Under the pieces are notes generated by a model. That model worked only from the letters and a program-made list of their open reading frames with translations. It was not told the DNA's origin and ran no database searches. A DNA stretch of 64,000 nt, from positions 186,001-250,000 of the forward strand of contig NZ_JAUOTP010000002.1 of NCBI RefSeq assembly GCF_030546695.1. The letters are read 5' to 3'. A program made the translations under genes and the position numbers. This document shows positions 3,531 through 44,896 of the stretch, one piece after another. Numbering within the stretch: the first letter of the stretch is position 1; every line of letters begins with the position of its first letter. This DNA comes from Sphingomonas natans (GTDB lineage Bacteria > Pseudomonadota > Alphaproteobacteria > Sphingomonadales > Sphingomonadaceae).

Positions 3531-6500
3531 ATGGCTCTGTCGGTTGAGCCGTGTCGGAGCGTCGTTTTGAATAGATCGCGTCACGATTTCGGCGTCTCGG
3601 GGGGAGACGACGAAGCCTCCCAGGCCGGAGCGATCGCGATCGTTGGCGCGGCCTGCCGTCTTCCAGGTGCGCCCGATCTGGACTCGTTCTGGCAGCTGCT
3701 GATCGAGGGCCGCGATGCCGTCACGGAGATACCGGACGATCGCTGGAACAAGGCGCAACTGCTGCACCCCGAAAAGGGTCATCGCGGTAAAGCCTATACG
3801 TTCGCGGCCGGCACACTCGGCGACGTCTCCGGCTTCGACCCCGCATTTTTTGGCATCAGTCCGCGCGAAGCGACCCAGATGGATCCGCAGCAACGCCTGC
3901 TGCTGGAGCTGGCTTATGAAGCAATCGAGGACGCCGGAATCGACATGGTCGAACTGGCCGGACGAAATGTCGGCGTGTTCGTCGGTGGATCGTCGTGGGA
4001 CTATCTGAACCTCAACGTCGCCGACGTTTCGACGACGGATCCCTACTCGATGATCGGCGTCACGCTTTCCATCCTTTCCAACCGCATATCTCACGTCTTC
4101 GACCTGCATGGGCCGAGCTTCACGATCGATACCGCCTGTTCCTCGTCACTCGTCGCGCTCCATCAGGCATGCGAAGCGATCCGTGCGGGCCAGATTGAGG
4201 CGGCTATCGTTGGCGGGGTCAGCCTATTGCTCGCGCCGCAGAGCTTCGTCGGATTCTGTGCAGCCTCGATGCTCTCTCCCAAGGGCCGCTGCCACGCGTT
4301 CGGCGCCGATGCCGATGGGTATGTACGCTCCGAGGGCGGCGGCATCGTTATCCTCAAGCCGCTGGCGGATGCGATCGCCGCGGGCGACCCGGTCCGCGCG
4401 GTGATTCGCGGCACTGGCGTCAATTCAGATGGGCGGACGACTGGCTTATCGCTGCCGAACCGCGATGCGCAGGCCGCGTTGCTGACGCAAGTCTACGGCC
4501 GCTTCGGCATCGATCCCGAGTCTTTGTCGTATCTTGAGGCTCACGGCACCGGCACCCAGGCCGGCGATCCGATCGAGGCCAATGCGCTCGGCAGCGTTCT
4601 TGGCAGGCCGCGTACGAATCCGCTGCCGATCGGCTCGGTCAAGACTAATATCGGCCATCTTGAGGCAGGCAGCGGGATGGCCGGCCTGCTCAAGGCGATG
4701 CTGGTGGCACAGCATGGAGCGATCCCGCCTTCTCTCCACAGCGCGGCGGCCAACCCCAATATCGCGTTCGACGAGCTTAACCTGCGGCTGGCACACGATT
4801 TAGAGCCATTGCCTGAGGGGCGACGGACGATCGGTATCAATTCGTTCGGCTTCGGCGGAACCAATGCTCACGCCGTGCTTGAATCTCGTTCGCTCTTTTC
4901 CGTGGCAGAAAAGGACGTCCGCAGACCTTCTGGAGACGGAGTGCGGCGGGACGACGCGCTGGAGGTGCTTCCGCCCCTCTTATTAGCGGCTCGGTCAGAT
5001 GCTGCGCTTGTCGCTGTGGCGACACAGTGGCGCGATGTAATTCGCCGCACGGCCCATGATCGCCCCGCTCTTGCCGCCCTCTTTCGCGGCGCGGCGCGGC
5101 ACCGCAGTCAGCACAAGCGTCGCCTTGTCGCGCTTGGCGCAGACGCGAGCGAACTCGACGCTGCGTTGAGTGCGCATATTGAGACCCGTGCCCATAGCCG
5201 GCTGGTCACCAACACAGCCGTCGCGGGTAAGATCGCGTTCATCTTTTCCGGCAATGGCAGCCAATGGGCGGGCATGGCATCTGACGCCATGGCCGGCAGT
5301 GCCGCTTTCCGTAATGCGTTGAGCATGGTCGACGCGGCGCTCCGTCCTCATCTTGGCTGGTCGGTGATCGATATGCTCGCTGCGGCCGACGCAGATCGCC
5401 TGCGCAATACGGACGTAGCCCAGCCATCGCTCTTCGCCGTTCAAGTGGCGCTGACGATCGCGTTGCGCGACTATGGCATCGAGGCCCAAGCGGCCATGGG
5501 CCATTCGGTTGGCGAAGTTGCTGCTGCGTGGGCAAGCGGCGCGCTGGATCTGGAAAGTGCGGCGCGCGTGATCTCGGCGCGTAGTCGCGCTCAGCAGGCG
5601 CGCCATGGCATTGGCGCGATGGCGGTGCTCGGCTTCGGTGCAGAGAATGCAGCAAAGGCGCTAGCTGAGGCTGGATTTGACCTGCGGGGCATCGAGATCG
5701 CAGCGCATAATAGCGGGGCTGCGGTCACAGTCGCCGGTCCGATAGACGTGATCGAGGCTTTAGAAGAAGAGAGCAAAGCGCGCGGCTGGCGCTTCACGCG
5801 CCTCGATCTCGATTATGCCTTTCATAGCGCCGCGATGGATCCGATCGAGTCGGATATCCGCGCCGATCTTGCCGATCTGGCACCTGGAAAGAGCGATACG
5901 CTCTTTGTTTCCACCGTCACGGGGCAGGCGCTGGACGGCACCGAACTAGACGCCGGCTATTGGTGGCGCAACGTGCGGCAGCCCGTCCTTTTCGCAGAGG
6001 CGGCCAAGGCGCTGGTCGCGGACGGCTACCGGATCTTCGTCGAGGTCGGGCCGCATCCCGTGGTGCAAGCCTATCTGAACGATGCGCTTCGGCTGGGTGA
6101 CAAGGAAGGTCGCGTCGTGCCGACGCTCTCGCGCCGCCCGATCAAGCACGATCCGATCGCCGCCATTGCAGCGCGTGTCCACGCCGCCGGCGGAGACATT
6201 CGCGGCGGCGCCGTCTTTGCGGACATGGCCGAATTACAGGGCTTGCCCCGTTATCCCTGGCAGCGTGAGCGCTTTTGGGTGCCGCGTACCAACGAGTCGA
6301 CCGATCCTGCGACCGTGCCGTACGATCATCCATTGCTCGGCCAGCGCGTCGGTCCGCAACCGCTAGAATGGGTGCGCCATCTCGGGATCGAGCAGCTGCC
6401 ATGGCTGGCCGATCACGTTGTCGGTGGTGCGGCGGTCATGCCGGCTGCTGCGATGCTCGATCTGGCGCTGGCCGCGGCACGCCAGCGCAAGCCGGGCGCA

Positions 6501-9500
6501 CTCGCATTGGAACTGCTGGAAGTCGAGATCGGCCGCGCGCTGGTGCTCGAACCGCATGTGATGCGCGAGCTTCGCCTGCGCGTCAGTGCCGCCACCGGTG
6601 AGTTTGAATTCGCATCGCACCCGCGCCTGACCGACGATCCGTGGACGATCCACATGTCCGGTCGACTGGTGGAGAGCGATTCGCTCGCGTCGTCGGGCAG
6701 CGTAACTGCCACCGAAACTGCGGCCTCCGCACACCTTTCCGGTGCCAGCCTTTATGCGCTAGCCTCGCGTCTAGGCCTCGATTACGGCCCAGCCTTCCGG
6801 GTGGTCGACAGCATCGACATCACCGGTGAGGACAGCGCGGTCGTTCGCTTCTGCGATGCCCCCGATCTCGGCGCGGGTTATCTACTAGCCCCCAATCTGC
6901 TCGACGGCGCGCTACAGGGCCTGCTCGCGCTCGCAGCCGATCGATTGGGCGAGGATATGGGCGTACTGCCGTGGCGATTCGGCAGGATTCGGCTGCTGAC
7001 GCCCGAAGGTGCGGTGCCGGTTGAGGCGCGACTTGCCGTTACCCGCGTTGGTCCGCGTTCTGTACGCGCCAATGTCGCGTTGATCGATGCCGGCGGTGCG
7101 ATCATCGCCGAATTGGTCGATTGCTGGTTCGTGCGCGTCGCGATGAGCCGCGGCTCACGTAACGACGAGCATTACTTTCATCCTGCGCTCGTGACGAGCC
7201 AGCTCCGGGGCAGCGTTGCTGCGACAGCCGAGTTGTCGATCGCCACCGTCATTGGCTCCATAGCGGAACCAGCCGTCGAGGAAGGTCGCCTGCTCGCCGA
7301 TGCCTTCGCCTCGGCGATTGCCGCCGAGACGCTCCGCAGTTTGGTTCCCGGCTCCGGTCGGCTGTTTCCACAGGACCTGTTCCGAACTGGTCAGGTGTCT
7401 CCAGAAAGCCGCCCGCAATTTGATCAGTTGCTCCGTTGGCTCGCTGCGGACGGCCTCGCCGAACAGGATGGCGATGGATCATGGAGCTTCGCGACGCAGG
7501 ACCTTCCACCTTCTGATGCGATCCTGCGCACCCTGCTCTACGATGCGCCGCTTGCGGTGGCTGATGTGGCTTTGCTGTCGCTCGCCGGTCAGACGCTTCC
7601 GGTGTTGCTGCGAGATGGGTCCGGTGTTGCGCCAGCTTTGCCGCCCGCGCTCTGGGACCAGTTCCTCAGTGATTCCCCCTCCGGTGAAGCCGGTATTGAG
7701 GCGCTCGTTGCGGCTGTCGTCCGAGCAGTGGCGAGCCGGCCCAAAGGTCACCCCTTCCGAATTCTTGAGGTCGGTGCGCGACGCGGTCGCCTGTCGCGCG
7801 AATTGCTCCGCCGCCTCGACGATCCCGAGCTTCGTCTCGTCGCGGCAACCACCCCGGACGATTTGCCCGCGCTTGCCGAAGCACTATCCAGTGAGCCGCG
7901 CGCCGGGGCGATCGGCTGGTCCCCGGGCGAAACGCTCGACGACGACCCATTCGACCTGATCGTTGGCATGCATTCGCTGAGCCTCGCCGACGATGGCGGC
8001 GCCAATGTCGCCAGCCTTGCGGCGCCGTTGGCACCGGGCGGATTCGTGCTCCTCGCCGAGCCCGGTGCCAACCGCGTATGGCCGCTGCTGCGCCCGTTCC
8101 TCGCCCCGCCGAGCGACGCTGGTCGCTGGACGGCGCTCCTTGCACGTGCGGGTTTCGAAAGCCTGCAATCGCGCCCGATCGCGGGAGGCCTCTGGCCGAT
8201 GGATCTCATCGCAGGAAAGCTCTCCCGCGTGCAGTCCGCTGCGCCTGCCCCAACTCGCCCGATCCATGTAGTCTCGGCAGATGGTGACGAATTGGCTGAA
8301 GCCATAGCGGGTCGGGTGGATCGAGAAGTCCGCGTTTGCGGACTCGACGACATTGGCACTATCACCGGTGCTGTCGCGATCGTGTTCGGGACGCGATTGC
8401 CCAGACTCGAGGAGCGGCTAGCGCTCATTGCCGGGCTGTCGGCGCTGCCGATCGACGCAAAGCACGATATCACGCTGATCGTGCATGGCCGCGCCGACGG
8501 GGATACCGATGCGGCGGCTTTGATGGGTGCCCGACGCGTACTCGCGAACGAAGCGGCGCACGTTCGTTTGCGCCTAGTCCGTCTCGATCCCGATCTGCCG
8601 CTCGACGCGGCCGCCGCCTACGCGGCAGCGGAGCTTGCGTCGCCAGATGACGAGAACGAGATCGCGTGGACGACGCATGGGCGTGTCGTCACTCGCGTCA
8701 GGAACGGTCTGCCTGACGCAGAAGCAGTAAAGAGCGGGGCGCTCCGGCTCGCGATTCAGAGGCCAGGCTTGCTCGATTCGCTTGGCTGGCAGGAAGGTGA
8801 CGTCACTGCGCCTAAGGCGAATGAGGTGGCGATCGAAGTGAAAGCTGCCGGCCTTAACTTCAGGGATGTCATGTGGTCGATGGGCCTGCTTCCCGACGAG
8901 GCCCTGCTTGACGGCTTTGCGGGTCCGACGCTGGGCTTGGAGTGCGCAGGGCTAGTCACCGCCGTCGGTGAAGGCGTGACGGCCTTCGCGCCCGGCGATC
9001 GGGTGATGGCGTTCGCTCCTGCTTCTCTCTCAACGCGGACCGTCACCGCGGCACATGCGATTATGCGGATGCCGGCGGGCCTCGACTTCGCCGCTGCCGC
9101 AACCGTGCCGGTTGCGTTCCTTACCGTAGCCTATTCGCTAGGCCACCTCGCCCGGATCACCTCCGGCGAGACCGTGCTTGTGCACGGCGGCGCCGGCGGC
9201 GTGGGCCTCGCCGCGATCCAATATGCGCTTCATCGCGGCGCACGCGTCCTCGCAACGGCGGGCTCGCCCGCTAAGCGCGCTCTGCTCCAAAATCTTGGTG
9301 TCGAGGCGGTGCTCGACAGCCGTTCGCTGAGTTTTGGTGACGACGTGATGCGGCTGACCGGCGGAGAAGGCGTCGATGTGGTGCTCAATTCGCTGAGCGG
9401 AGAAGCGATGCGGCGCAGTCTCGGCCTTGTTAAGCCCTTCGGGCGGTTCCTGGAGCTGGGCAAGCGCGACTTCTATGAAAATAGCAGCGTAGGTTTGCGG

Positions 9501-10970
9501 CCGTTCCGCCACAATGTCAGCTATTTTGGGATCGACGCGGATCAGTTGCCTCTTAAGCAACCAAAGCTTGCCGCAGACTTGTTCGACGAGATTGCAACAC
9601 TTTTCGCGGAGGGCGCTCTCCGTCCGCTACCACACCGGACGTTCGATTATGCTGATGCCGAGAGTGCATTCCGGCTCATGCAGAGCGCCGGCCATATCGG
9701 CAAGATCGTGCTTACGCCGGGGCCGGTGGCGCCGCGTCGCATAACGACCGCTTGCACCTTCGCCGCGGGACCAGGCGTCTATGTCGTCACGGGCGGGCTC
9801 GACGGATTTGGTCGCGAGGCAGCCCGCTGGCTAGCCCGCAATGGTGCGCGCAAGATTGGCCTGCTGTCCCGCCGCGGACCCGCCATTGAGGGCGCCGACG
9901 CCCTCCTCGCGGACTTCGCTCAAATGGGAGTCGCTGCCAAGGCCTATGCTGTCGATGTCGCTGACGAGGCGAAGCTGGCCACCACGCTCGATATGATCCG
10001 CGCAGATCTGGGACCGATCTCGGGAGTGGTCCACGCAGCCGTTGCTATGGACGACGCGCTCCTCAGTGCATTGGATGCCGGACGCTTCGAGCGCGCGCTG
10101 GCCCCGAAGCTCCGGGGCGCCCTGGCGCTAGACCGGCTGACCCGCCAGGATCCAATCGACCTGTTCCTGTTATTCTCTTCAGTAACGACACCGCTCGGCA
10201 ATCCGGGCCAGGGCAATTATGTCGCCGCCAATGCCGCGATAGAGGCGCTTGCCGAGCGCCGTCACGCAGAAGGGCTGCCCGCGCTTGCCATCCAATGGGG
10301 GCCGATCGGAGACGCCGGCTATCTCGCCCGCGAACTCCAAGTAAGCGAGATGCTGACCAAACAGCTCGGTGGCGCGCATCTCTCCGCACAGGAGGCTCTC
10401 AATCGCATACCGACATTGCTGGCTTCCGGGATTCCGGTCGCGGGTGTCGCAACGGTGCGCTGGGGCGCCATGAAGAGCCGCCTACCGCTCGTCGCCTCCC
10501 CCCTCTTCTCGGAGATGGCATTGTCCGGAACCGACGAAGCAGGCGAGATTGATCTCGCGGCCCTGCTTTCTGATCTCAGTCCGGAGGAAGCGCGCGAGCG
10601 CGTCACCGCCCTACTCGTCGAGGAGGTCGCGCGGATCATGAAGCTTGCGCCAGAACGCGTCGAGGCACAGCGCCCGCTCGCCGAGCTTGGCATGGACAGT
10701 CTGATGGCAGTCGAGCTTCGCCTTGCCGTCGAACATCGCTTTGGCCTGTCGATCCCGCTGCTTGCCCTGTCCGAAGGCGCGACGCTGTCGGCGATGGCTG
10801 GACGGATCATCCGCGGCTTGGGAAGCGAAGGGGATGGCGCCCCGACCGACGAGACGTCGAAGCTCTTGGAGCGCCTTGCTCTTCACGAAGGGTCCAGCGG
10901 CATCCCCACCGCAGAGGCAATACCGGCTGCGGAGCCCGGTATGGCCGCAGTTGCCGCGGGAGCGCCTTGA
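3531..10970 (+). CDS. Type I polyketide/fatty acid synthase, RkpA-like
   Basis: A 2479-residue fully reducing single-module synthase. The order is KS (about 34-455; catalytic C203, H338, H376), AT (about 568-860; GHSVGE with S659, and AFHS with H765, suggesting malonyl use), DH (about 930-1200; H962 and D1125 in LLDGALQ), a methyltransferase-like region (about 1400-1560), ER (about 1740-2060; glycine-rich loop near 1884), KR (about 2080-2290; Y2230) and ACP (serine S2390 in GMDSL). The methyltransferase region reads LEVGARRGR instead of a glycine-rich SAM loop and is probably inactive. No thioesterase is present. The next gene is an alpha-oxoamine synthase that can release a thioester by decarboxylative condensation with an amino acid. 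Architecture and context match S. meliloti RkpA, implicated in the capsule lipid. The start lacks a clear Shine-Dalgarno sequence. Confidence 0.9.
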   Translation: MALSVEPCRSVVLNRSRHDFGVSGGDDEASQAGAIAIVGAACRLPGAPDLDSFWQLLIEGRDAVTEIPDDRWNKAQLLHPEKGHRGKAYTFAAGTLGDVSGFDPAFFGISPREATQMDPQQRLLLELAYEAIEDAGIDMVELAGRNVGVFVGGSSWDYLNLNVADVSTTDPYSMIGVTLSILSNRISHVFDLHGPSFTIDTACSSSLVALHQACEAIRAGQIEAAIVGGVSLLLAPQSFVGFCAASMLSPKGRCHAFGADADGYVRSEGGGIVILKPLADAIAAGDPVRAVIRGTGVNSDGRTTGLSLPNRDAQAALLTQVYGRFGIDPESLSYLEAHGTGTQAGDPIEANALGSVLGRPRTNPLPIGSVKTNIGHLEAGSGMAGLLKAMLVAQHGAIPPSLHSAAANPNIAFDELNLRLAHDLEPLPEGRRTIGINSFGFGGTNAHAVLESRSLFSVAEKDVRRPSGDGVRRDDALEVLPPLLLAARSDAALVAVATQWRDVIRRTAHDRPALAALFRGAARHRSQHKRRLVALGADASELDAALSAHIETRAHSRLVTNTAVAGKIAFIFSGNGSQWAGMASDAMAGSAAFRNALSMVDAALRPHLGWSVIDMLAAADADRLRNTDVAQPSLFAVQVALTIALRDYGIEAQAAMGHSVGEVAAAWASGALDLESAARVISARSRAQQARHGIGAMAVLGFGAENAAKALAEAGFDLRGIEIAAHNSGAAVTVAGPIDVIEALEEESKARGWRFTRLDLDYAFHSAAMDPIESDIRADLADLAPGKSDTLFVSTVTGQALDGTELDAGYWWRNVRQPVLFAEAAKALVADGYRIFVEVGPHPVVQAYLNDALRLGDKEGRVVPTLSRRPIKHDPIAAIAARVHAAGGDIRGGAVFADMAELQGLPRYPWQRERFWVPRTNESTDPATVPYDHPLLGQRVGPQPLEWVRHLGIEQLPWLADHVVGGAAVMPAAAMLDLALAAARQRKPGALALELLEVEIGRALVLEPHVMRELRLRVSAATGEFEFASHPRLTDDPWTIHMSGRLVESDSLASSGSVTATETAASAHLSGASLYALASRLGLDYGPAFRVVDSIDITGEDSAVVRFCDAPDLGAGYLLAPNLLDGALQGLLALAADRLGEDMGVLPWRFGRIRLLTPEGAVPVEARLAVTRVGPRSVRANVALIDAGGAIIAELVDCWFVRVAMSRGSRNDEHYFHPALVTSQLRGSVAATAELSIATVIGSIAEPAVEEGRLLADAFASAIAAETLRSLVPGSGRLFPQDLFRTGQVSPESRPQFDQLLRWLAADGLAEQDGDGSWSFATQDLPPSDAILRTLLYDAPLAVADVALLSLAGQTLPVLLRDGSGVAPALPPALWDQFLSDSPSGEAGIEALVAAVVRAVASRPKGHPFRILEVGARRGRLSRELLRRLDDPELRLVAATTPDDLPALAEALSSEPRAGAIGWSPGETLDDDPFDLIVGMHSLSLADDGGANVASLAAPLAPGGFVLLAEPGANRVWPLLRPFLAPPSDAGRWTALLARAGFESLQSRPIAGGLWPMDLIAGKLSRVQSAAPAPTRPIHVVSADGDELAEAIAGRVDREVRVCGLDDIGTITGAVAIVFGTRLPRLEERLALIAGLSALPIDAKHDITLIVHGRADGDTDAAALMGARRVLANEAAHVRLRLVRLDPDLPLDAAAAYAAAELASPDDENEIAWTTHGRVVTRVRNGLPDAEAVKSGALRLAIQRPGLLDSLGWQEGDVTAPKANEVAIEVKAAGLNFRDVMWSMGLLPDEALLDGFAGPTLGLECAGLVTAVGEGVTAFAPGDRVMAFAPASLSTRTVTAAHAIMRMPAGLDFAAAATVPVAFLTVAYSLGHLARITSGETVLVHGGAGGVGLAAIQYALHRGARVLATAGSPAKRALLQNLGVEAVLDSRSLSFGDDVMRLTGGEGVDVVLNSLSGEAMRRSLGLVKPFGRFLELGKRDFYENSSVGLRPFRHNVSYFGIDADQLPLKQPKLAADLFDEIATLFAEGALRPLPHRTFDYADAESAFRLMQSAGHIGKIVLTPGPVAPRRITTACTFAAGPGVYVVTGGLDGFGREAARWLARNGARKIGLLSRRGPAIEGADALLADFAQMGVAAKAYAVDVADEAKLATTLDMIRADLGPISGVVHAAVAMDDALLSALDAGRFERALAPKLRGALALDRLTRQDPIDLFLLFSSVTTPLGNPGQGNYVAANAAIEALAERRHAEGLPALAIQWGPIGDAGYLARELQVSEMLTKQLGGAHLSAQEALNRIPTLLASGIPVAGVATVRWGAMKSRLPLVASPLFSEMALSGTDEAGEIDLAALLSDLSPEEARERVTALLVEEVARIMKLAPERVEAQRPLAELGMDSLMAVELRLAVEHRFGLSIPLLALSEGATLSAMAGRIIRGLGSEGDGAPTDETSKLLERLALHEGSSGIPTAEAIPAAEPGMAAVAAGAP

Positions 10971-10979
10971 TCTGGCCGC

Positions 10980-12353
10980 ATGCTCGTGCGACCGATCCTC
11001 CATATGACTGATTCCTTCGGACTTTCCGGCGCTGCCAAGGCCCAGCTCCTTGCGCGGCTCTCGGCGCGGCAACCCGGGCCACATATTGAAGCTCTTCCGG
11101 AGCCACGTGCGCCCTTAGGCCGCAGCGACGTCGCAGGCGACATCGCGATGGTCCAGCGGGCGGGCGATGCACTCGGAATCGCCAATCCCTATTTTCGCGT
11201 CCACGAAGGCATCGCCGGGGCCCGATCGACGATAGAGGGCCAAATCTACGATAACTTCGTGTCCTACAATTATCTCGGCCTCAACGGGAGTCCGCGGGTC
11301 TCCGACGCCGCAAAGAACGCGATCGATCGTTACGGCACCTCTGTTTCGGCAAGTCGTATTGTCTCGGGCGAGCGCCCGATCCATCTGGCGCTGGAGGAGA
11401 AGCTCGCCGCCATTTACCGGACCGAGGATGCGCTGACGTTGGTCAGCGGCCACGCGACGAATGTCACCGTCATCGGCCATCTCGTCGGCCGCGGCGACCT
11501 GATCGTGCATGATGCGCTGTCGCACAATAGCATCGTCCAGGGGGCGCTGCTGAGCGGCGCCCAGCGAATTGCCTTCCCGCACAACGACATGGACGAGCTG
11601 GATCGTCTGCTCGGACAGGCGCGGTCGGGTGCCGATCGAGCCCTGATCGTGGTCGAAGGCCATTACAGCATGGACGGCGACATTCCCGACTTGGCCCGCC
11701 TGATCACAATCGCCCGCCGCCACCGCGCGCACATCATGGTCGATGAGGCACATTCGCTCGGCGTGCTGGGCACCAAGGGCCACGGCATCTTCGAGCATTC
11801 CGATGTTGATCCCGGCGAGATCGATGTGTGGATGGGCACGCTATCCAAGACCCTTTCGGGCTGCGGTGGCTACATCGCCGGCAGTCGCCAGCTCATCGAA
11901 TATTTGCGCTATTCGGCCCCGGGCTTCGTATATTCGGTCGGCCTGCCACCCCCCATCGCCGCCGCCGCGCTGGCCAGCTTGGAGATGATGGCAGCCGAGC
12001 CTGAGCGGATCGCCCGGCTCCAGGCGAACAGCGCACGTTTCCTCAAGACGGCTCGCGCGCACGGCCTCGATACTGGACTGTCGATTGGCAGCGCGATCGT
12101 GCCTGTAATGACTGGCAGTTCGATCGTAGCTGCTCGGGCTGCCGACGCGCTGTTCGCGCGAGGCATCAATGTCCAGCCGATCATCTATCCCGCTGTGCCA
12201 GAACAGGGCGCGCGGCTGCGCTTCTTCATCTCGAGCCTCCACGAGCAGGAACAGCTCGATCGTGTTGCTAGGAGCGTCGCCGAAACGATCGCTGAATTAC
12301 GCGATATGCCAGTCGATCTCACTGATCTGGCGAACCGGCTTGCGGCGCGATAG
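10980..12353 (+). CDS. Alpha-oxoamine synthase (AONS/SPT-like), RkpG-like
   Basis: A 457-residue PLP-dependent enzyme of the alpha-oxoamine synthase family (8-amino-7-oxononanoate synthase, serine palmitoyltransferase). It has the VDEAHSLGVLG block with D255 and H258 and the PLP lysine K290 in GTLSKTLSGCGGY. Family members condense an acyl thioester with an amino acid, releasing CO2, to give an aminoketone. Nine nt after the PKS and without any biotin gene nearby, it most likely takes its acyl chain from the PKS ACP, giving a sphingoid-like base. It also resembles RkpG, which is needed for capsule in S. meliloti. Which amino acid is used cannot be read from sequence. A second in-frame ATG at 11004 is an alternative start. 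Confidence 0.85.
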   Translation: MLVRPILHMTDSFGLSGAAKAQLLARLSARQPGPHIEALPEPRAPLGRSDVAGDIAMVQRAGDALGIANPYFRVHEGIAGARSTIEGQIYDNFVSYNYLGLNGSPRVSDAAKNAIDRYGTSVSASRIVSGERPIHLALEEKLAAIYRTEDALTLVSGHATNVTVIGHLVGRGDLIVHDALSHNSIVQGALLSGAQRIAFPHNDMDELDRLLGQARSGADRALIVVEGHYSMDGDIPDLARLITIARRHRAHIMVDEAHSLGVLGTKGHGIFEHSDVDPGEIDVWMGTLSKTLSGCGGYIAGSRQLIEYLRYSAPGFVYSVGLPPPIAAAALASLEMMAAEPERIARLQANSARFLKTARAHGLDTGLSIGSAIVPVMTGSSIVAARAADALFARGINVQPIIYPAVPEQGARLRFFISSLHEQEQLDRVARSVAETIAELRDMPVDLTDLANRLAAR

Positions 12354-12377: not shown

Positions 12378-13607
12378 ATGTCAATGTCGTCCTCATCGAC
12401 CCAAGAGCCCGAGATTATCCTCGATTTATCGCGCCTGTTGTCCCGCGTTTTCCACGCGACGCCGACGGGAGTGGATCGCTGCGAGATGGCCTACGCTCGG
12501 GGATTCCTGGCTGCGGCGCCACAGCGACTCCGCTTTGCTGCAGTCCATCCCAGCGGATTTTACGGCAGGATTCCAAGCGCCAGCGTGCTGCGCTTTCTCG
12601 ATGCAACAGAAGAGAGGTGGGATCATCAAGGCTTTGCGTCCGTCTGGGAGATGCGCCGCTTTGCGATGAGCACCCTGACCGCTCTTCGCCCACGGATACA
12701 TCAGCGCGCGCCCGACGCGCCACGACCATTCTACGTTCAGGCGTCCCCTAACAATCTGACAAAACCAGATCTCGTGGCCAGCATTCTTAAACGAGAGCGC
12801 GCGCGATTCGTTTGTCTCGTCCACGATTTGATCCCCCTCCAATATCCTGAATATGCCCGGCCCGGGGGTGCGGCAGAGCATAACGTTCGCATTCGGACGA
12901 TCCTAGATTATGCGGACGGGGTGATTGCCAATTCTCAGGCGACGCTGGAAGCGCTCCAGCCGTGGATGCATATTGTCGGCCGGGAGCCGGCAACCGTTGT
13001 TGCTCATCTTGGCACGCACCTGCACCAGCAGGCAAACTCTCCCCGACGGCCGAATGCCCGCCCTTATTTCGTCTGTATCGGGACCATAGAGCCACGAAAA
13101 AATCATCTGCTGCTGCTCAACCTGTGGCGACGCATGGCCGAGGAGTACGGCGCGCTCGCGATACCGCGCCTGATCATCATCGGGCGCCGCGGCTGGGAAA
13201 ACGAGCAGGTGGTCGATATGCTAGAGCGTTGCCCGGCTCTGAAAGACTGCGTCGAGGAGGAGGGACGGCTTTCCGATAGAGAAGTCGCCGCGCTGTTGCC
13301 GGGCGCGTGCGCGTTATTGATGCCGTCCTTCGCCGAAGGATATGGCATGCCGATTGCGGAAGCCCTCAGCCTGGGCGTGCCAGTCATTTGCAGCGATCTT
13401 CCGGTGTTTCGTGAAGCGGGAAGCGGCATACCGGAATATCTCGATCCCCTCGACGGGATGGGGTGGCTTCGCGCCGTCTCAGATTATGCGCAGCCCGACG
13501 GCAAAGATCGAATGGCGCAGTTAGAGCGTCTTAAGCGATGGGCGGCGCCTACGTGGCCCCAGCATATCGCCATCGCTCTCAAACTGTTGCATAGGACCCG
13601 TGCATGA
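12378..13607 (+). CDS. Glycosyltransferase family 4
   Basis: A 409-residue GT-B glycosyltransferase of family 4. The C-terminal domain has the usual hinge block IGTIEPRKNH, and the nucleotide-sugar site SFAEGYGMPIAEALSLG near residues 316-332. The N-terminal domain carries VHDLIPLQYPEY, typical of mannosyl/rhamnosyl-transferase-like members. Cytoplasmic, probably adding a capsule residue. The start ATG follows AAGG by 7 nt. Its stop overlaps kpsM by 4 nt (ATGA), so translation is probably coupled to the exporter permease. The donor sugar cannot be assigned. Confidence 0.85.
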   Translation: MSMSSSSTQEPEIILDLSRLLSRVFHATPTGVDRCEMAYARGFLAAAPQRLRFAAVHPSGFYGRIPSASVLRFLDATEERWDHQGFASVWEMRRFAMSTLTALRPRIHQRAPDAPRPFYVQASPNNLTKPDLVASILKRERARFVCLVHDLIPLQYPEYARPGGAAEHNVRIRTILDYADGVIANSQATLEALQPWMHIVGREPATVVAHLGTHLHQQANSPRRPNARPYFVCIGTIEPRKNHLLLLNLWRRMAEEYGALAIPRLIIIGRRGWENEQVVDMLERCPALKDCVEEEGRLSDREVAALLPGACALLMPSFAEGYGMPIAEALSLGVPVICSDLPVFREAGSGIPEYLDPLDGMGWLRAVSDYAQPDGKDRMAQLERLKRWAAPTWPQHIAIALKLLHRTRA

Positions 13608-14422
13608 GTACCCGCCCCCTGACCGCCGCGCGTGAAACGACGTTTCTAGAAGCGCTTGCTACCCAAGCGCGCGTCATCGGGGCGCTGATTTTGCGCGAAC
13701 TTCATACGCGCTATGGCCGGGAGAATGTCGGCTACCTCTGGATGATCGGCGAGCCGATGCTCCTTGCAACCGTGATCGGCTCACTCCACGGGGCCAGTGG
13801 ACATGGCAATCCGTACGGTGGCGACATGAAGCCCGTGCCCTTCGCGGTTCTGGGCTACACGACATTCATTCTGTTCCGGGGAATCGTCAATCGCGCAGAA
13901 GGCGGTGTCGAGGCCAATGCATCGCTTCTCTACCACAAACAAGTTACCGTGTTCGATATCAATCTGGCCCGGGGATTTCTTGAGTTTGCAGGCGGTTTCG
14001 CAACATTCGCCATATTGATGAGCTTGCTCGTTCTCGTTGGCATGGCAGACTGGCCTGCGCGCCCACTACCGCTCCTGATGGCATGGTTTCTTATGTTCTG
14101 GTATGCAATGGGTCACGCCTTTCTTATTTCGGCGATCACCTATGAAAATCGGACGGTCGGCCGGCTTGTCCATCCCTATAGTTATTTCATGGTCGGGTTA
14201 TCCGGTGCGTTTCTGCCATTGCACTGGCTCCCGCATCCCTATCGGGAATGGCTCGCCTGGGTGCCATTGACGAGCGTTTTTGAACTGGTGCGATACGGCT
14301 GGTTCCAATCTGCTAATTTGGACGAATTTTCAGGTCGGTACTTGATCGGCTCCTGTATGGTGCTGACGTGGGTTGGCCTCGTCATGATGCGTAGACTGCG
14401 CGAGCATATCCATCTGGCTTGA
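13604..14422 (+). CDS. kpsM: Capsule ABC exporter permease KpsM
   Basis: A 272-residue ABC-2 type inner-membrane permease of group 2/3 capsule exporters. The N-terminus has the amphipathic RVIGALILRELHTRYG block that precedes the first membrane helix, followed by about six hydrophobic segments, the last ending near residue 265. Length matches KpsM/BexB/CtrC. It should pair with the KpsT ATPase encoded far away at 51952-52614 on the opposite strand, and moves lipid-linked polysaccharide to the periplasmic face. It overlaps the upstream GT4 by 4 nt and lies just before kpsE. Confidence 0.88.
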   Translation: MSTRPLTAARETTFLEALATQARVIGALILRELHTRYGRENVGYLWMIGEPMLLATVIGSLHGASGHGNPYGGDMKPVPFAVLGYTTFILFRGIVNRAEGGVEANASLLYHKQVTVFDINLARGFLEFAGGFATFAILMSLLVLVGMADWPARPLPLLMAWFLMFWYAMGHAFLISAITYENRTVGRLVHPYSYFMVGLSGAFLPLHWLPHPYREWLAWVPLTSVFELVRYGWFQSANLDEFSGRYLIGSCMVLTWVGLVMMRRLREHIHLA

Positions 14423-14455
14423 AGTCGGTATCGGTTGAGGATCATAGGTAACGCG

Positions 14456-15628
14456 ATGAATATGCATGGCATTATGAAGCCGGCGTTGGACGAAACGGAT
14501 CTTCGTCGATCGAGTACGCTCGACAATGTCAAACGCTGGATCTGGCAACGCCGCGTATTCGGACTGTTTGTGGCTTTTCCGACGATCGTATTGGCTGCAT
14601 ATTTGTTTTTGATCGCGTCCGATCAGTACGAGTCGGAAGCGCATTTCATCGTCAAGTCGGCCAATACCACTACGGTGCCAGGCACCGGCATTTCTCAAGC
14701 ATTGAGCATGGTGACCGGTTCCACCTCATCAAGCGGTGATGCAACGAGTGTTGCCGATTACCTGACGTCGCACGATGCAGTCTCTGCACTTCGCGCGAAG
14801 CTCGGCCTCGTCGAACGGTTTCATCGCCCTGAGATCGATTACTTAAGCCGGCTCCGGAAGGATGATCCCACGCCAGAGCAACTTTTGAAATATTATCGCA
14901 AGCAAGTCGCTGTCCATTATGATGGCGACACCGGTATTACGACGGTCAAAGTACATGCCTTCACGCCCACAGACTCTTATGCGATCGTTCGCCGATTGCT
15001 CGAACTGGGTGAACAACGCGTCAATTTCCTCAACCATCGATCCTATAACGATGCGATAGAGACATCGCGCAAGCAGCTCGCCGATGCGGAGGCTGCCCTC
15101 GCGAATGCGCAAGGCCGGCTGACCAGTTACCGACAGACGCGGCGTGATATCGATCCCGAGGTTTCCGGACGTGCGCAGATCGGTCTCGTTTCCACGCTGA
15201 CCGGTCAGCTCTCGGGCGCCCGCGCGCAATTGTCCGCCATGGGATCGATGATCGATCACAACAGTCCTCAGTATCGTGCGCTGGCTTCGCATGTGTCCGC
15301 ACTCGAGGCGCAACTCGCCGCGCAATCGGGAAGGCTAACCGGGGGCAGCAACACAATCGCGGCGGGCATCGGCGGCTATGAAGACCTGCAAATCCGTCAG
15401 CAGTTTCTCGCCAAGCGATACGAGGCGGCTGCAGCGAGCCTCGACAAGGCGCAGGACCAGGCCCTGCGGCAGCAGCTTTATCTGGTCCGCGTCGTGGATG
15501 CCAACATGCCGGTCAAGGCGCTCTTCCCCGAGCGGTGGAAGATCCTTGCGACCGTCACGATCGCGCTGCTCCTTGCTTATTCGATTGGCTGGCTGATCGT
15601 CGCCGGTGTCCGTGAGCACGCGGCCTGA
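14456..15628 (+). CDS. kpsE: Capsule export inner-membrane adaptor KpsE
   Basis: A 390-residue polysaccharide co-polymerase/membrane-periplasmic adaptor (PCP-3) of the KpsE/BexC/CtrB type. One membrane helix lies near residues 35-58 and a second at the C-terminus (about 361-383). A long periplasmic coiled-coil region with many Gln/Ala/Arg heptads lies between them. It links the KpsM/KpsT transporter to the outer-membrane channel. I chose ATG 14456 (AGGT 6 nt upstream) over the in-frame TTG at 14435. It is 33 nt downstream of kpsM. Confidence 0.88.
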   Translation: MNMHGIMKPALDETDLRRSSTLDNVKRWIWQRRVFGLFVAFPTIVLAAYLFLIASDQYESEAHFIVKSANTTTVPGTGISQALSMVTGSTSSSGDATSVADYLTSHDAVSALRAKLGLVERFHRPEIDYLSRLRKDDPTPEQLLKYYRKQVAVHYDGDTGITTVKVHAFTPTDSYAIVRRLLELGEQRVNFLNHRSYNDAIETSRKQLADAEAALANAQGRLTSYRQTRRDIDPEVSGRAQIGLVSTLTGQLSGARAQLSAMGSMIDHNSPQYRALASHVSALEAQLAAQSGRLTGGSNTIAAGIGGYEDLQIRQQFLAKRYEAAAASLDKAQDQALRQQLYLVRVVDANMPVKALFPERWKILATVTIALLLAYSIGWLIVAGVREHAA

Positions 15629-18892: not shown

Positions 18893-20938
18893 GTGGCTGG
18901 CGACCGGGGCGATCGGGGGCTGCCTCGGAGCGTGGGCAAGATCAGTACATTGCTGCGAAACATCGTCGAACTCGTCGGTTCCAGACTACCCACGCGCTCG
19001 CGCGCGGGGCTGGTCCAGAGGCTTGTGGCGCGTGCCAATGCAGAACGCGACACACAACGCTACCTGACGGCCTCGGCGTTTTATGAGGAGGCTCTTCGAC
19101 TTTCGCCGAGCAATGCCCGAGTCCATATCCAATGCGGCCACATGTACAAGGAGGCCGGTGATTTTGCGCGAGCAGAAGTCCATTATAACCGGGCCTTGTT
19201 CTTGCTGCCGGATGATCCCGATTTGAGTCTGCAGCTCGGTCATTTCTACAAGCTCGCCGAGCGTCCGACAGAGGCAGCGGACGCCTATCGCCGAGCTGCA
19301 GCGCAGCGCCCCGGCTGGGTGGAAGCCGAAGAAGAGCTGAAGCGCATCTCGCAGGCTGATTTCTGGCGGGTCCTGGGCGAATCGCCGGTCGAAGGCGTCG
19401 TACCTGAGTTGCTGCCGGCAGGCCGTCTAACCGCACCACAGCAGCTACGCGAAGGGTTACATGTAACGAGGCTCGGCGGGACTCGGCTCCGGAGCGCGAA
19501 CGGCGATCGCAGGGCGCTCCGCGGAGTAGAGGCAGTGCGCGGTTTCGTGATCTGCTCGACCTTGTTGAAGGAGGTCACTCTCGCCGTCGATGGGCACATC
19601 GTCGCCCGGGAGCCCCTCCACGCTCACGAACTCGCAAGGCAGTCGAAGTACGTGTTCAATATCTGGCACGACTTCTCGACGGCTTCCCTTGGAGAAGCGC
19701 AGATCGAGCTGCGAGTTTCCGACGGTCGCGGATGGAGCCGCACTCATCGCGTCGTGCTGGAAATAGCGTTGCCGCGAAGCGACCCCCTGGCAGCCGCGTC
19801 CGATGCGATCATTCCGCTCCCCGTGCCCGCCGAGCAGCTCTTGGAAGATGCGATAAACGCTCGTCCAAGCGTGGTGCGAACCGCGGCTCGCGCGATCTTC
19901 ATGGAACCGCCCAAAACCATCCTCGTACAGCGCGCCGATCAATTGGGGGATCTTGCCTGCTCCGTACCCGCCCTTGCGCGACTGCGATCCCACTTCCCCA
20001 AAGCCCAGATCGTCGCTTTGCTGGCCCAATCGAATGCCGATCTGGGTCGCACGCTGCCGATGATCGACGAGGTGATCGTCGCGCCGTTCATCGAGGATGT
20101 CGCCGACGGTCCGCGGACGATGACCGCATCCGCCCAAATGGAATTGCGCCGAACGCTATCGCGATACTGTTTCGACATCGCGCTCGATCTTGCCGAAACG
20201 AGCGGCTCGCGCCCGTTGCTCCTGCTTTCCGGGGCCCGATTTCTCTATGGCTTCAAAGCGCGCGAATTTCCATGGATGACGGCAGGCTTCGAGCTCGGTG
20301 CTCGCGATCCGGGGAATGATCATGAAATGGCGGCAACGGCACAGAAGCTGGTAGCGCTGGTAGACAGTCTTTCCACCCTCGTGGGAAACAATAGCGAGCC
20401 AGCACCGCGGGCATTGCCGGCAACGTTGCTCGCGCCCTTCGGAATAGACGGCACGACCCGCTTTGTTGTGCTCCATTCGGGAGCGCGCCTCGCGTACAGC
20501 CGCTGGCCGGGCTTCCGGGCGCTGGTAAAAATACTGGTGGAGCGCACCGACCTAACGGTCGTGACAATGGGCGAGGACATTGCCGATCTGCCCGACCACG
20601 AACGGCTGAAACGCATTTCCGGCCTGTTACCCTTCGATGCGTTCGACGCCTTGCTAGGGAACGCCATGGCCTTCGTAGGCAACGATTCAGGTCCGAAGCA
20701 TCTCGCTGCGCTACGCGGTATTCCGGTCGTGAGCCTTCATATGGCAAGGTTGAATTGGAGCGAATGGGGACAGACCGGGATCGGTTCGATTATTAGCAGG
20801 CAAGTTCCGTGCGCAGGATGTGGCATCGGCCCACGCGAAGAGGAATGCGGCAAAGCGTTTGCTTGCATCCGCGCCATCCAGCCTGAAGAGGTCTTTAAGG
20901 CTCTGCTGGACTTACTGCCCGCCCAACAAGCAAACTAG
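18893..20938 (+). CDS. TPR-GT9 heptosyltransferase-like protein (paralogue 1)
   Basis: A 681-residue three-part protein. Residues about 40-160 are TPR repeats. Residues about 175-300 are a beta-rich module with RALRGVEAVRGF and KYVFNIWHDFS. Residues about 325-680 are a GT-B glycosyltransferase of family 9, the ADP-heptose:LPS heptosyltransferase family, with LVQRADQLGDL at its start and GNDSGPKHLAALRGIPVV in the donor domain. A cysteine cluster, PCAGC then ECG and FACIR, closes the enzyme as in many heptosyltransferases. It directly follows hldE (GTG at the stop), so ADP-heptose is the likely donor. Paralogues lie at 25479 and 27570. An alternative GTG is at 18932. Confidence 0.82.
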   Translation: MAGDRGDRGLPRSVGKISTLLRNIVELVGSRLPTRSRAGLVQRLVARANAERDTQRYLTASAFYEEALRLSPSNARVHIQCGHMYKEAGDFARAEVHYNRALFLLPDDPDLSLQLGHFYKLAERPTEAADAYRRAAAQRPGWVEAEEELKRISQADFWRVLGESPVEGVVPELLPAGRLTAPQQLREGLHVTRLGGTRLRSANGDRRALRGVEAVRGFVICSTLLKEVTLAVDGHIVAREPLHAHELARQSKYVFNIWHDFSTASLGEAQIELRVSDGRGWSRTHRVVLEIALPRSDPLAAASDAIIPLPVPAEQLLEDAINARPSVVRTAARAIFMEPPKTILVQRADQLGDLACSVPALARLRSHFPKAQIVALLAQSNADLGRTLPMIDEVIVAPFIEDVADGPRTMTASAQMELRRTLSRYCFDIALDLAETSGSRPLLLLSGARFLYGFKAREFPWMTAGFELGARDPGNDHEMAATAQKLVALVDSLSTLVGNNSEPAPRALPATLLAPFGIDGTTRFVVLHSGARLAYSRWPGFRALVKILVERTDLTVVTMGEDIADLPDHERLKRISGLLPFDAFDALLGNAMAFVGNDSGPKHLAALRGIPVVSLHMARLNWSEWGQTGIGSIISRQVPCAGCGIGPREEECGKAFACIRAIQPEEVFKALLDLLPAQQAN

Positions 20939-24240: not shown

Positions 24241-25479
24241 CTAGGCAACAGACCTGCTCGCCGCGCCCAGATGCGCGACAATGTGCGCGCGCGAGGGATC
24301 GCCGAAAAAGCCTGTCGAGCAGGACGCAAGCGAAAAGGCGTCTTCGGCGAGAGCCTTGATCCGGAGACCGACCTGCGCATTCCAGCCGAGCGTCTGGCAA
24401 TGATCAAATGCTTCCCCGGCTCCCTTCAGATCGCCGCTCAACCCGAGCAAATCGCCCAGGATGATCCATTCGGACGAGTCGCCCGGCGCCAGGCGAGTGA
24501 GCGCGCGTTGGGAAGCCACGGCCGCATCGACGTCGCCGGTGCTGAGCGCCGTGTCCCGGGCAGCCCAAGCCCATTCCCTGGTATGGAGATCTTGAGCCCT
24601 CCCGATCAGGCTTTGCAGCGAGCCCGCCGCCCCGCGAAAATGAACGATCCGGACGATCTGGCGCGCCGCATAGGGCGGTGCCTGCACCGTTAGCGCGATG
24701 AGCCAGGCCACCTCTTCGTCCACAGCAAGAGGCTCGACACTGGCGACCCGAATGAAAGCCGGTAAGTCGCGCCCATCCCGGACGAGCCGGATGACATTCG
24801 ACAGACAAGGGCCGAGCCCTCCCCAACCGAGCCGGATCGTCTGAGCGAAGGCATCATCCCAACCGAGAGCTGCCAATTCTTCAAGTCTGCGCGCAAGCCG
24901 TTGCACGCGATCATAGACAACGATCATCGTCATCGCAGCAGGATCGGCGTCGATCCGCCGAACCTCGCGTGGAAGGCTCCAACGCGCGACATCGGACATC
25001 AGCCGTGAAAGGGCGACCATGTCGGAGTCGGAGCCAGCTTGTAGCATCGCCGGAAGGACCAATGCCAGATCGCTGCTCACCCGCGCGTAGCCTGCGAGCG
25101 AGAGCGGTTCCGCTTGCGGGATTGGTTCGCTGGAAACCCGCAGCGGTGGGGTCACCGCCAGCAGGCGTCGCAACTCCAAAAGACCCGTTTCAACCATCGA
25201 CGCCGGAGCGACTGGCTCATCCCGAAGAGCGGGAGCTCGCCACAGGCCGGTCTTCTCAGAAATCGCTGCTTGCCAGCGCAGAGCCTCCGGGGAGAGCCCC
25301 TGTTCAAGCGCTGCGACGCCGAAGAGCAATAGCGCGCTCTCGCGCTCGCCTGCAACTAATGCGAGTTCGGCTAAATCCAGGATATCCTGTAGCGGCGCAT
25401 TGGCGGTCAGCATCGCGGCATTCCGGCGGAACGCGTCGTCAATGAGAGTTCGGGTCAAGTCGGTCGGAGGCCTCACCAT
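24241..25479 (-). CDS. Helical/TPR-like protein of unknown function
   Basis: A 412-residue protein, not assigned to a family with certainty. It is rich in Ala/Leu helices, with TPR-like patterns near the N-terminus (ILDLAELALVAGERESALLLF) and near residues 330-390 (AAVASQRALTRLAPG). No signal peptide or catalytic motif was seen. ATG 25479 overlaps the stop of the upstream TPR-GT9 gene by 1 nt (TAATG), so coupled translation and a joint role with the heptosyltransferases are likely. The longer frame to 25599 lies inside that gene and is not used. Confidence 0.6.
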   Translation of the reverse strand: MVRPPTDLTRTLIDDAFRRNAAMLTANAPLQDILDLAELALVAGERESALLLFGVAALEQGLSPEALRWQAAISEKTGLWRAPALRDEPVAPASMVETGLLELRRLLAVTPPLRVSSEPIPQAEPLSLAGYARVSSDLALVLPAMLQAGSDSDMVALSRLMSDVARWSLPREVRRIDADPAAMTMIVVYDRVQRLARRLEELAALGWDDAFAQTIRLGWGGLGPCLSNVIRLVRDGRDLPAFIRVASVEPLAVDEEVAWLIALTVQAPPYAARQIVRIVHFRGAAGSLQSLIGRAQDLHTREWAWAARDTALSTGDVDAAVASQRALTRLAPGDSSEWIILGDLLGLSGDLKGAGEAFDHCQTLGWNAQVGLRIKALAEDAFSLASCSTGFFGDPSRAHIVAHLGAASRSVA

Positions 25480-27563
25480 TACCCCGCTTCCGATCGAGCA
25501 GGATCCGACAGCGGAACGGATTCGGCCAAGACGGTTTTGATAGCCTGCATTACCTCCGCCGTCGTAATATTGCGCAAGCAGACGAAATCTGCCCCGCATT
25601 CCTCGGCATCATAGTGGATCATGCAACCCGCGCAGGGAACCTTGCGCGAGATGATGTATCCGCTGCTTTCCTGGCCCCACTCATTCCAGTTAGTGCGCGC
25701 CATGTGGATGCTCACCACCTCGGCCCCGCGAAGCGAAGCAAGATGTTTCGGCCCCGAATCATTGCCGGCGAAAACCGCGCAATTCGCGAGCAATGCGTCG
25801 AATGCATCGTAACTGAGCCTGGGTGGCATCAGGCTGAAGCGCCCGGAATTTTCGAGCTCAGCGGAGAGGCCAGGACCTTTGCTTTGATCATCCCGCAGCA
25901 TGACGACATCCAGGTCGGTCTCGCGCAAAATCGCTTCGGCCAAGGCATTGAAATAAGGCCAACGACTGAACAACAGGCGAGCGCCATCATGCACCACGGC
26001 ATAGCGGCGGCCCGGACGCAAACCCAGACTAGCGAGGGCCTCGTCAGAAGGGTGTGTTCGACGCACGACGTTCGGTTCGCTGCGTGCAAGAGCACCCAGC
26101 CATTCCATCATGCCCAGCATCTTGTTCGTGTGCGGCACGACTTCATAGCCGTTCCAGCGATCGTGCGTATTGCCTTCCAGATCGAGACTGAGGCCCGGCA
26201 CGTCGTCGCCCGCCCGGAAGCCGTACAGAAAAGGCGCGCCGCTCAGCAGCAGAACGCGGCGAGCCCAGCCGTTTTCCGACATGTCGATCGCCATGTCGAA
26301 CCGGTAAGGCTTGAACATCTCGACCAGTTCACGCTGCTTTTCCAGCGGCATTATCCGCCGGCGCTGGTCCCAGTCTTCGGGAAAATCCGTGACCAGAACC
26401 TCATCGAACAGACCGAGATCGCTCGCCAGATCCCGGTTGGCGTTGCTGACAAGCCCTACGATCCGCGCTTCGGGAAAGAGCGAACGCAGCCGCCGCAAAG
26501 CGGGAACGGAGACGACCATGTCGCCCAGCTGGTCGATCCGCTGCACCAAGATCGTACGCGGTGCCTCCGCCAGCAAAGCTCGTCGGGCCGAACGAATTTG
26601 CGAAGGCCGTTCGTTTATCTGCTGTTCGATCGGGCGAGGATCACCAGCGTCGATTTCGACGATGCCGTCGAGCTGGGGATATTGCGCCTCGGTAAGCGCC
26701 GGCTGAATCACGATCTCCTCGTGATGTGTGTAACGGCGGTTTTTGACATCCGTGATCCGGATGCCCACGTCATACCGTCCGGGCAGATCGAGACTGAAAT
26801 CGATCCACGCGTTGAAGATGTATTTCATCAGCTCGGGCCGATGCTTTTCCCGCTTGATCTCATGGCCGCCATCAAGCGGCCCGCGATGACGCGCGATGCC
26901 GTTTACCAGGATCAGCACTTCGACGAGCGGCGTCGGCGAAATGCAGAATCCGCGGACGGCCTCGACGCCGCGAAGAGTTCTCCTCGTGCCCCAGTTGCTA
27001 CGCTCGGAGCGTCCGAGACTCCGGATTTCGATACCTTCTCGATGCGCATGTAACAATTCGGCCGGGGGCCGCGGGAGAAGGTCGCGTTGGACCGTGAAAC
27101 CGAGCGACGCCGACAATGCTGCAGCCTCAGCGCCGACGTCCAACACCACTGTTTCGGCATAGGTCGCCGGCTGATCGGAAAGGCCATCCAGCCTCACGAG
27201 TTCCTCTCGCACCTCCGTCCACTCCGGTCGGAGCGAAAGCGCGCGTTGATAGGATGTGACCGCTTCCTCGCGCCGTCCCGCGACTTTCAAAAAATGACCG
27301 AACTGCAGCGCGAGATCGGCATCCTCGGGCATCAGCCGCTCGGCGGAGCGATAATGCTGCTCGGCTCGCGCAAGATCCCCGCCTTCCTTGAACATATGGC
27401 CAGCCTGAACGTGAAGGTCCCCACGGTGTGGCAAAAAGCGTAGCGCTTCTACGTAAAGCGCTGCCGCTTCGAGGAAGCGCCCTGCATCGCGGCGCTCGTT
27501 GGCGCGCGCGACGAGTTCGCGAGCCAGGCGGCGTTGCGGAATGAATTTAGGAATCAACGGCAT
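25479..27563 (-). CDS. TPR-GT9 heptosyltransferase-like protein (paralogue 2)
   Basis: A 694-residue protein with the same three-part build as the proteins at 18893 and 27570: TPR (about 15-130), a beta module with TLRGVEAVRGF and KYIFNAWIDFS (about 190-300), then GT9 (about 330-690). GT9 blocks include LVQRIDQLGDMVVSVPALRRL and GNDSGPKHLASLRG. The cysteine cluster is PCAGC, ECG, VCLR. It probably transfers heptose or a related sugar from an ADP donor in the cytoplasm. It lies 6 nt after paralogue 3, consistent with tandem duplication. Confidence 0.82.
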   Translation of the reverse strand: MPLIPKFIPQRRLARELVARANERRDAGRFLEAAALYVEALRFLPHRGDLHVQAGHMFKEGGDLARAEQHYRSAERLMPEDADLALQFGHFLKVAGRREEAVTSYQRALSLRPEWTEVREELVRLDGLSDQPATYAETVVLDVGAEAAALSASLGFTVQRDLLPRPPAELLHAHREGIEIRSLGRSERSNWGTRRTLRGVEAVRGFCISPTPLVEVLILVNGIARHRGPLDGGHEIKREKHRPELMKYIFNAWIDFSLDLPGRYDVGIRITDVKNRRYTHHEEIVIQPALTEAQYPQLDGIVEIDAGDPRPIEQQINERPSQIRSARRALLAEAPRTILVQRIDQLGDMVVSVPALRRLRSLFPEARIVGLVSNANRDLASDLGLFDEVLVTDFPEDWDQRRRIMPLEKQRELVEMFKPYRFDMAIDMSENGWARRVLLLSGAPFLYGFRAGDDVPGLSLDLEGNTHDRWNGYEVVPHTNKMLGMMEWLGALARSEPNVVRRTHPSDEALASLGLRPGRRYAVVHDGARLLFSRWPYFNALAEAILRETDLDVVMLRDDQSKGPGLSAELENSGRFSLMPPRLSYDAFDALLANCAVFAGNDSGPKHLASLRGAEVVSIHMARTNWNEWGQESSGYIISRKVPCAGCMIHYDAEECGADFVCLRNITTAEVMQAIKTVLAESVPLSDPARSEAG

Positions 27564-44749: not shown

Positions 44750-44896
44750 GGGATCGTGCGGAACCAGCGCGCCAGTTTAGCGGAACCGAGCACAGTGCAG
44801 CGCACGCAAGCCATCACAATCTCATCTTTTTCGATTGGCTCGCCGACCAGGAAGCTATCTGTTGCTTCGACGGCAGGGTTAGGGGCATTTAGCCTC

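Follow-up and report, generated by a model that had tools for sequence, protein, structure and literature searches.

Analysis of a 64,000-nucleotide stretch of the Sphingomonas natans genome (the window; C6:186001-250000, on one of the 13 contigs of a 4.56 Mb genome) leads us to propose, tentatively, that a polyketide synthase (PKS) gene and the alpha-oxoamine synthase (AOS) gene that follows it make up the half of an ABC-transporter-dependent capsule system that produces its lipid. The proposal draws on gene content, motifs, co-occurrence, gene order and a contrast between the trees of two linker enzymes, KpsS and KpsC, all of which were observed. Positions without a prefix are those of the window, and the S. 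natans genome is referred to as the host.

In the proposed route, the PKS would use malonyl units to build an acyl chain and, having no thioesterase, would keep it on its acyl carrier protein (ACP). The AOS would take the chain from the ACP and join it to an amino acid, for which serine is the likeliest choice. The product would be a 3-ketosphinganine-like aminoketone, which a short-chain dehydrogenase (SDR) of the RkpH/WcbP type (C6:254574-255353, downstream of the KpsS gene) would reduce to a sphinganine-like amino-alcohol. RkpI (C6:253045-254553, likewise downstream of KpsS), a WcbQ-type membrane protein that contains a sulfatase-fold domain, would then move glycerol phosphate from phosphatidylglycerol (PG) to the 1-hydroxyl, yielding a single-chain lipid with the shape of lyso-PG. 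As their counterparts do in E. coli, KpsS would place the first Kdo (3-deoxy-D-manno-oct-2-ulosonic acid) on that glycerol, KpsC would extend the linker, glycosyltransferases would add the polymer, and KpsMTED would export it. All of this chemistry, including serine as the AOS substrate, the acceptor of RkpI, and the side of the membrane on which RkpI works, is inferred from sequence. The hand-off of the chain from PKS to AOS is very likely, and it is probable that the resulting lipid is both the acceptor of KpsS and the anchor of the capsule; the transfer of glycerol phosphate to that lipid by RkpI is put forward with more reserve. The PKS, AOS, SDR and RkpI genes are referred to below as the module.

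The PKS, of the RkpA/WcbR type (3531-10970, forward strand; 2479 residues), was identified from Pfam matches and active-site motifs. The Pfam domain order is ketosynthase (KS), acyltransferase (AT), dehydratase (DH), a degenerate methyltransferase, enoylreductase (ER), ketoreductase (KR) and ACP, and no thioesterase domain was found in the Pfam scan. The motifs searched in the KS, AT, DH, ER, KR and ACP domains were all intact, and those of the AT (GHSVGE and YAFH) are of the malonyl type. The Pfam methyltransferase match was under its cut-off (22.0 versus 27 bits), and an active C-methyltransferase was ruled out, the S-adenosylmethionine (SAM) motif being degenerate in six of six aligned proteins (the host's and those of five relatives). 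The AOS, of the RkpG/WcbT type (10980-12353, forward strand; 457 residues), was assigned from Pfam, NCBIfam, a tree and a structure model; it lies 9 nt beyond the PKS, and might start instead at the ATG at 11004, where the aligned protein of genome G004 begins. A first-pass annotation, made from the sequence alone, had described a PKS without a thioesterase, an AOS 9 nt on, and then genes for a family 4 glycosyltransferase (GT4), KpsM and KpsE. This arrangement was borne out by the open reading frames and by Pfam and NCBIfam matches.

Tracking of the module by KpsS

The module was sought in 299 genomes of the phylum, using profiles trained on module loci, with at most five candidates scored per genome in the first searches (A1 and A2). 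An RkpG-type AOS scored at least 620 bits in 14 genomes (next score 590), RkpI scored at least 300 bits in 14 (next score 264), and PF05159, the family of KpsC and KpsS, was matched in 68. RkpG and RkpI occurred jointly in 11 genomes, with three holding RkpG only and three RkpI only; the 17 genomes with either protein were all PF05159-positive, G326 only by a weak match at another site in its genome. Fisher tests of RkpG-RkpI co-occurrence, ancestry ignored, gave 3.6e-15 across the 299 genomes, 7.4e-8 within the 68, and 1.5e-6 with one genus collapsed. A PKS lay beside the AOS in all 14 RkpG genomes, with an LpxC-like gene between the two in G326, and of the 11 genomes with both proteins, 10 have the SDR and nine have KpsS no more than a few kb from RkpI. 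No RkpI was found in six genomes with a middling RkpG score, where all candidates were scored.

In E. coli, KpsS is described as putting the first Kdo on PG or lyso-PG, and KpsC as extending it (PMC7694667). If the lipid made by the module is the acceptor, KpsS should therefore track the module, and KpsC need not. In a KpsS tree of 46 rows, all 26 rows from genomes with RkpG, RkpI or both fell on one side of a branch (support 97/92), and the 20 rows from genomes with neither fell on the other. This split was present in 96% of bootstrap trees, and none of 500 shuffles came out as low. The 26 module rows come from 24 genomes (those of Methylobacterium and G086 are nearly identical, and that of G044 is partial), and the 20 others were drawn from the 51 PF05159-positive genomes with neither protein, as 19 of those with the best PF05159 scores plus G117, ten being of one family. 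Left out were G108 (cut at the border of the fetched stretch), G326 (weak match), Caballeronia, G004 and G005. The KpsS of G329, of the same family as G326, fell with the genomes lacking the module. In trees matched for 36 genomes (17 with the module and 19 others; some KpsC rows are fragments, and L169 was dropped as too short), KpsS required one change of label (93/91, not starred; 92% of bootstrap trees) versus five for KpsC, for which the starred branches force at least three. A one-group topology was rejected for KpsC (p-AU 1.8e-43).

The SDR and RkpI of the host were located by checking which neighbours of plasmid PKS-AOS homologues recur in its genome. Of 667 matched plasmid records, 40 were listed and 10 regions were fetched. 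Among the seven Pseudomonadota plasmid loci, SDR and RkpI were found in all seven, and KpsS and PKS in six each; KpsS was not found in 33 kb of Caballeronia, nor a PKS in 29 kb of an Acidisoma plasmid. The latter stretch (L049) holds AOS, SDR, RkpI, KpsS, KpsC, KpsM and KpsE, and an FA_hydroxylase-family gene adjoins its AOS. Within the genus, a close AOS was present in six of seven genomes, the host included (the seventh is 71% complete), and all six have RkpI. The PKS-AOS pair and the KpsS-SDR-RkpI group are 55 kb apart in the host; this split looks secondary, because two genomes of the same genus hold all five genes within about 15 kb.

RkpI and the case against a module-built anchor

RkpI keeps the active site of phosphoglycerol transferases, and its fold and catalytic residues are of the LtaS/GacH type. 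Its model was closest, among the families listed, to GacH, LtaP and LtaS, with GacH, a polysaccharide glycerol-phosphate transferase, the nearest. Loop-charge counts placed the domain inside in 19 of 22 RkpI proteins and outside in three, including that of the host; among four E. coli controls the counts gave two right calls, one tie (OpgE) and one wrong call (OpgB). The S. meliloti RkpI, whose start is unsure, was left out. Sixteen further loci resembling lipoteichoic acid (LTA) synthase were scanned, of which five carried the motif used by the script; four of these were called inside and one outside. An RkpI-like protein beside a PKS-AOS pair in G099 (L132), where there are no capsule genes, was set aside as support because two residues of the RkpI motif, His and Arg, are missing from it. 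No solved structure matched the SDR at E 1e-25. Phosphoglycerol dihydroceramide has been reported from Porphyromonas gingivalis; such head groups on sphingolipids therefore exist.

Several observations weigh against an anchor built by the module. The catalytic domains of the LtaS family are extracytoplasmic and KpsS works inside, and the host's RkpI was itself called outside. KpsC also clustered by label beyond chance (five changes, where shuffling gave a mean of 12.2), which makes the contrast between KpsS and KpsC one of degree, and physical linkage of KpsS to the SDR and RkpI could explain part of the KpsS pattern. Profiles trained on module loci favour the finding of such loci, and the Fisher tests do not allow for ancestry. 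Three genomes (G212, G272 and G274) have RkpG and KpsS and, with all candidates scored, no RkpI; three others (G038, G044 and G319) have RkpI and KpsS and no high-scoring RkpG. Finally, G070 carries two PKS-AOS pairs (L144 and L145), one of them by KpsM/KpsE-like genes, and has neither RkpI nor a PF05159 match; an export locus can therefore include an AOS lipid and yet have no Kdo starter of the PF05159 family.

In an alternative that we consider unlikely, the module makes the anchor and RkpI is not its builder: the amino-alcohol (or PG) would receive Kdo directly from KpsS, whereas RkpI would add glycerol phosphate to the polysaccharide or to an exported lipid in the periplasm, like GacH and OpgB. 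The likeness to GacH, the outside placement of the family and of the host's RkpI, and the three genomes that manage without RkpI all suit such a role. Set against it are the 19 inside calls and the company that RkpI keeps with KpsS and the SDR in polysaccharide loci of different kinds. In G038, G044 and G319 (L137-L139), moreover, KpsS and RkpI are adjacent or one gene apart, beside KpsM/KpsE, and KpsS still belongs to the module group; this retention of RkpI without RkpG fits a part in the anchor better than a decorating role. Two KpsS-like proteins were observed side by side in G272 (L143) and G274 (L171), and perhaps the second replaces the RkpI step there.

It is improbable that the PKS-AOS lipid is instead a separate envelope lipid or signal, needed only indirectly for export or retention of the capsule. 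The G070 pair by the KpsM/KpsE-like genes could be read in this way, as could members of the same AOS clade in actinobacteria and a cyanobacterium that have no capsule genes nearby; in the stretches fetched around four such PKS-AOS loci, neither RkpI nor KpsS was found. Against a separate lipid stand the tight gene order with KpsS, and the tracking of the module by KpsS, the enzyme that uses the acceptor, and not by KpsC.

The first-pass annotation had proposed that the pair makes an aminoketone lipid that anchors or carries the capsule, in place of or besides a PG anchor. The aminoketone origin of a capsule lipid gains indirect sequence-level support from the adjacency and fusion of PKS and AOS, the SDR of the module, and the tracking of the module by KpsS and not KpsC. 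Replacement of the PG anchor fares less simply: the locus holds KpsS as well as KpsC, so that the Kdo linker is kept, and RkpI suggests a custom look-alike of lyso-PG.

Probable chain release and amino acid choice by the AOS

The AOS matched PF00155 and the models for BioF, KBL (2-amino-3-ketobutyrate CoA ligase) and serine palmitoyltransferase (SPT), none of them over the cut-off. Two SPT models with cut-offs of 500-640 bits gave scores of 278-296, and a third, with a cut-off of 670, gave 215. The host has a separate SPT, which passes two of the three models and has Sphingomonas wittichii SPT as its best match among solved structures, and the AOS was therefore ruled out as SPT itself. In a tree of 53 sequences, the AOS fell inside a clade of 38 rows (support 100/99) that holds capsule loci as well as fused PKS-AOS proteins from Planktothrix, Streptomyces and Tessaracoccus; the host's SPT and its two 5-aminolevulinate synthases (ALAS), as well as E. 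coli KBL and BioF, fell apart from it. Stop and start codons overlapped by 4 nt in 10 of the 16 PKS-AOS pairs measured. Together, the fusions and these overlaps argue for direct release of the chain from the ACP of the PKS by the AOS. Many PKS C-terminal tails (about 10700-10970 in the window, and in relatives) were seen to carry a short L/V-A-x-R/Q-H motif after the ACP; a helix is predicted at the AOS N-terminus, and the two are a possible docking pair.

The AOS model (mean pLDDT 85.5) had SPT as its top structural match, with KBL also among the closest, and it keeps the residues that bind pyridoxal phosphate and the substrate carboxylate. There is a small probability that the AOS uses alanine or glycine, in which case the aminoketone would be of a 1-deoxy or short-head kind and RkpI would act on some other lipid. 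KBL is among the closest structures, and the residues compared do not separate serine users from alanine users; the top match to SPT speaks for serine, as does the position that in ALAS is tied to restriction to glycine, which is a serine in the AOS. Genes of the FA_hydroxylase family (PF04116), which includes sphinganine hydroxylases, lay at most 7 kb from the clade AOS in the four loci scanned. A PhyH-family dioxygenase gene adjoins KpsC before the window (C6:181779-182801; L036:11779-12801); its product, a possible chain hydroxylase, shares 51% identity across 303 residues with a protein encoded next to the PKS-AOS pair of a Pseudomonas plasmid.

A biotin role, the competing function raised by the first-pass annotation, is disfavoured: although the host has a bioB match over the cut-off and only four AOS matches (the AOS, one SPT and two ALAS), with no other BioF-like gene, the chance that the AOS is a missing BioF is negligible given that no bioD match was found in the host, that the score against TIGR00858 (344.4 versus a cut-off of 426.45 bits) is 82 bits short, and that the pairing with a PKS is conserved. 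De novo biotin synthesis in the host looks incomplete from its gene content.

The capsule locus and its relatives

Directly after the AOS on the forward strand are the GT4 (12378-13607; Pfam), a KpsM-like ABC transporter permease (13604-14422; Pfam ABC2_membrane, with the NCBIfam KpsM model below its cut-off) and a protein of the BexC/CtrB/KpsE family (14435-15628; TIGR01010, 249 bits, below the cut-off), with spacings of 24, -4 and 12 nt from the AOS onwards. By tblastn, the genus and Acidisoma have GT4 homologues close to the AOS, and G319 has one that lies between KpsS and RkpI. On the reverse strand are a KpsD-like export protein (50676-51872; Pfam Poly_export and SLBB, tblastn) and a KpsT-like ATPase (51952-52689), found by tblastn with two KpsT-type proteins of plasmid loci (40% and 47% identity). 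KpsC (C6:182996-184432; PF05159 match C6:183515-184285) lies about 1.6 kb before the window, and KpsS (C6:255350-256729, reverse strand; PF05159 match C6:255494-256411), which matched model NF050054 below its cut-off, lies about 5 kb after it. The locus also contains a 615-residue open reading frame (44477-46324, forward strand) with MaoC dehydratase and SDR/KR-like matches, which gave way as a candidate reductase of the module when the RkpH-like SDR came to light, and large family 9 glycosyltransferases at 18893-20938, 25479-27563, 27570-29657 and 48586-50673, three of them with tetratricopeptide (TPR) repeats.

A link of rhizobial and Burkholderia capsules to PKSs that resemble fatty acid synthases has reportedly been known for a long time. 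PKS genes of the rkpA/wcbR type in capsule clusters are already in print (PMC3908369). In two further papers, rkpI was listed in 2023 as a transmembrane protein of biosynthesis or export (PMC9952627), and a 2025 study of Cobetia treats wcbPQRT as a capsule lipid biosynthesis operon whose proteins are little known, and interprets WcbQ as an LTA synthase with reference to work on GacH (PMC11766843). The terms polyketide, sphing, rkp and wcb were absent from a 2025 review of capsule attachment (PMC12220298; term search), and no statement of a sphingoid capsule anchor was found among the open-licence papers searched; one may be in print elsewhere. The type of locus is ordinary, and its interest lies in offering a testable role for the PKS-AOS pair of such capsules; new here are the wider module and a concrete job proposed for each gene of the rkp/wcb kind. 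If the proposal is true, a bacterial sphingolipid underlies many of the capsules exported by ABC transporters, and the KpsS lineage marks the type of anchor; the proposal would also offer a simple rule by which genomic capsule loci can be read. In its broadest form the proposal is doubtful, namely that a wide branch of capsules is anchored on a purpose-built sphingolipid and not on a membrane phospholipid; this lipid, a synthetic lyso-PG with a PKS-made long-chain base and glycerol phosphate, would be made on the cytoplasmic side by an inverted LtaS-like phosphoglycerol transferase and be recognised by a KpsS lineage of its own.

By its gene content, the host locus is a further member of the rkp/wcb capsule type, with PKS-AOS, SDR, RkpI and KpsS in the same locus. 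The names rkpA, rkpG, rkpH, rkpI and rkpJ of the S. meliloti rkp-1 region are, by our assignment, those of the PKS, AOS, SDR, membrane protein and KpsS; these genes were reportedly studied in strain Rm41 and are said to be needed for capsule in S. meliloti. On pSymB of strain Ak57, used here in place of Rm41, all five genes are present and contiguous, in the order PKS-AOS-SDR-RkpI-KpsS (AOS 48% and KpsS 45% identical to the host's), whereas in the host the PKS-AOS pair is 55 kb from KpsS-SDR-RkpI, and GT4, KpsM and KpsE follow the AOS. A Paraburkholderia plasmid locus has the gene set of the host as KpsS-SDR-RkpI-PKS-LpxC-like-AOS in a row, an order that we take to be that of wcb (wcbPQRT); in the host, by contrast, no LpxC-like neighbour of the pair was found. 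In three loci of Burkholderiales type (L042, L043 and L152/L153), the PKS and the AOS are separated by an LpxC-like deacetylase, that of L042 scoring over the cut-off of NF009666. The AOS is closest in fold to SPT and, unlike SPT, falls below all SPT model cut-offs; the same logic of a highly reducing PKS paired with an AOS is found in the fungal fumonisin pair FUM1/FUM8. RkpI shares fold and catalytic residues with GacH, LtaP and LtaS and differs in its proposed acceptor, a lipid precursor, which, if confirmed, would bring that kind of acceptor to the phosphoglycerol transferases. With the group 2/3 capsules of E. coli, anchored on (lyso-)PG-Kdo, the host shares homologues of KpsS, KpsC, KpsM, KpsT, KpsE and KpsD; it differs in adding the PKS, AOS, SDR and RkpI, and in a KpsS lineage that stands apart from that of the sampled loci without the module.

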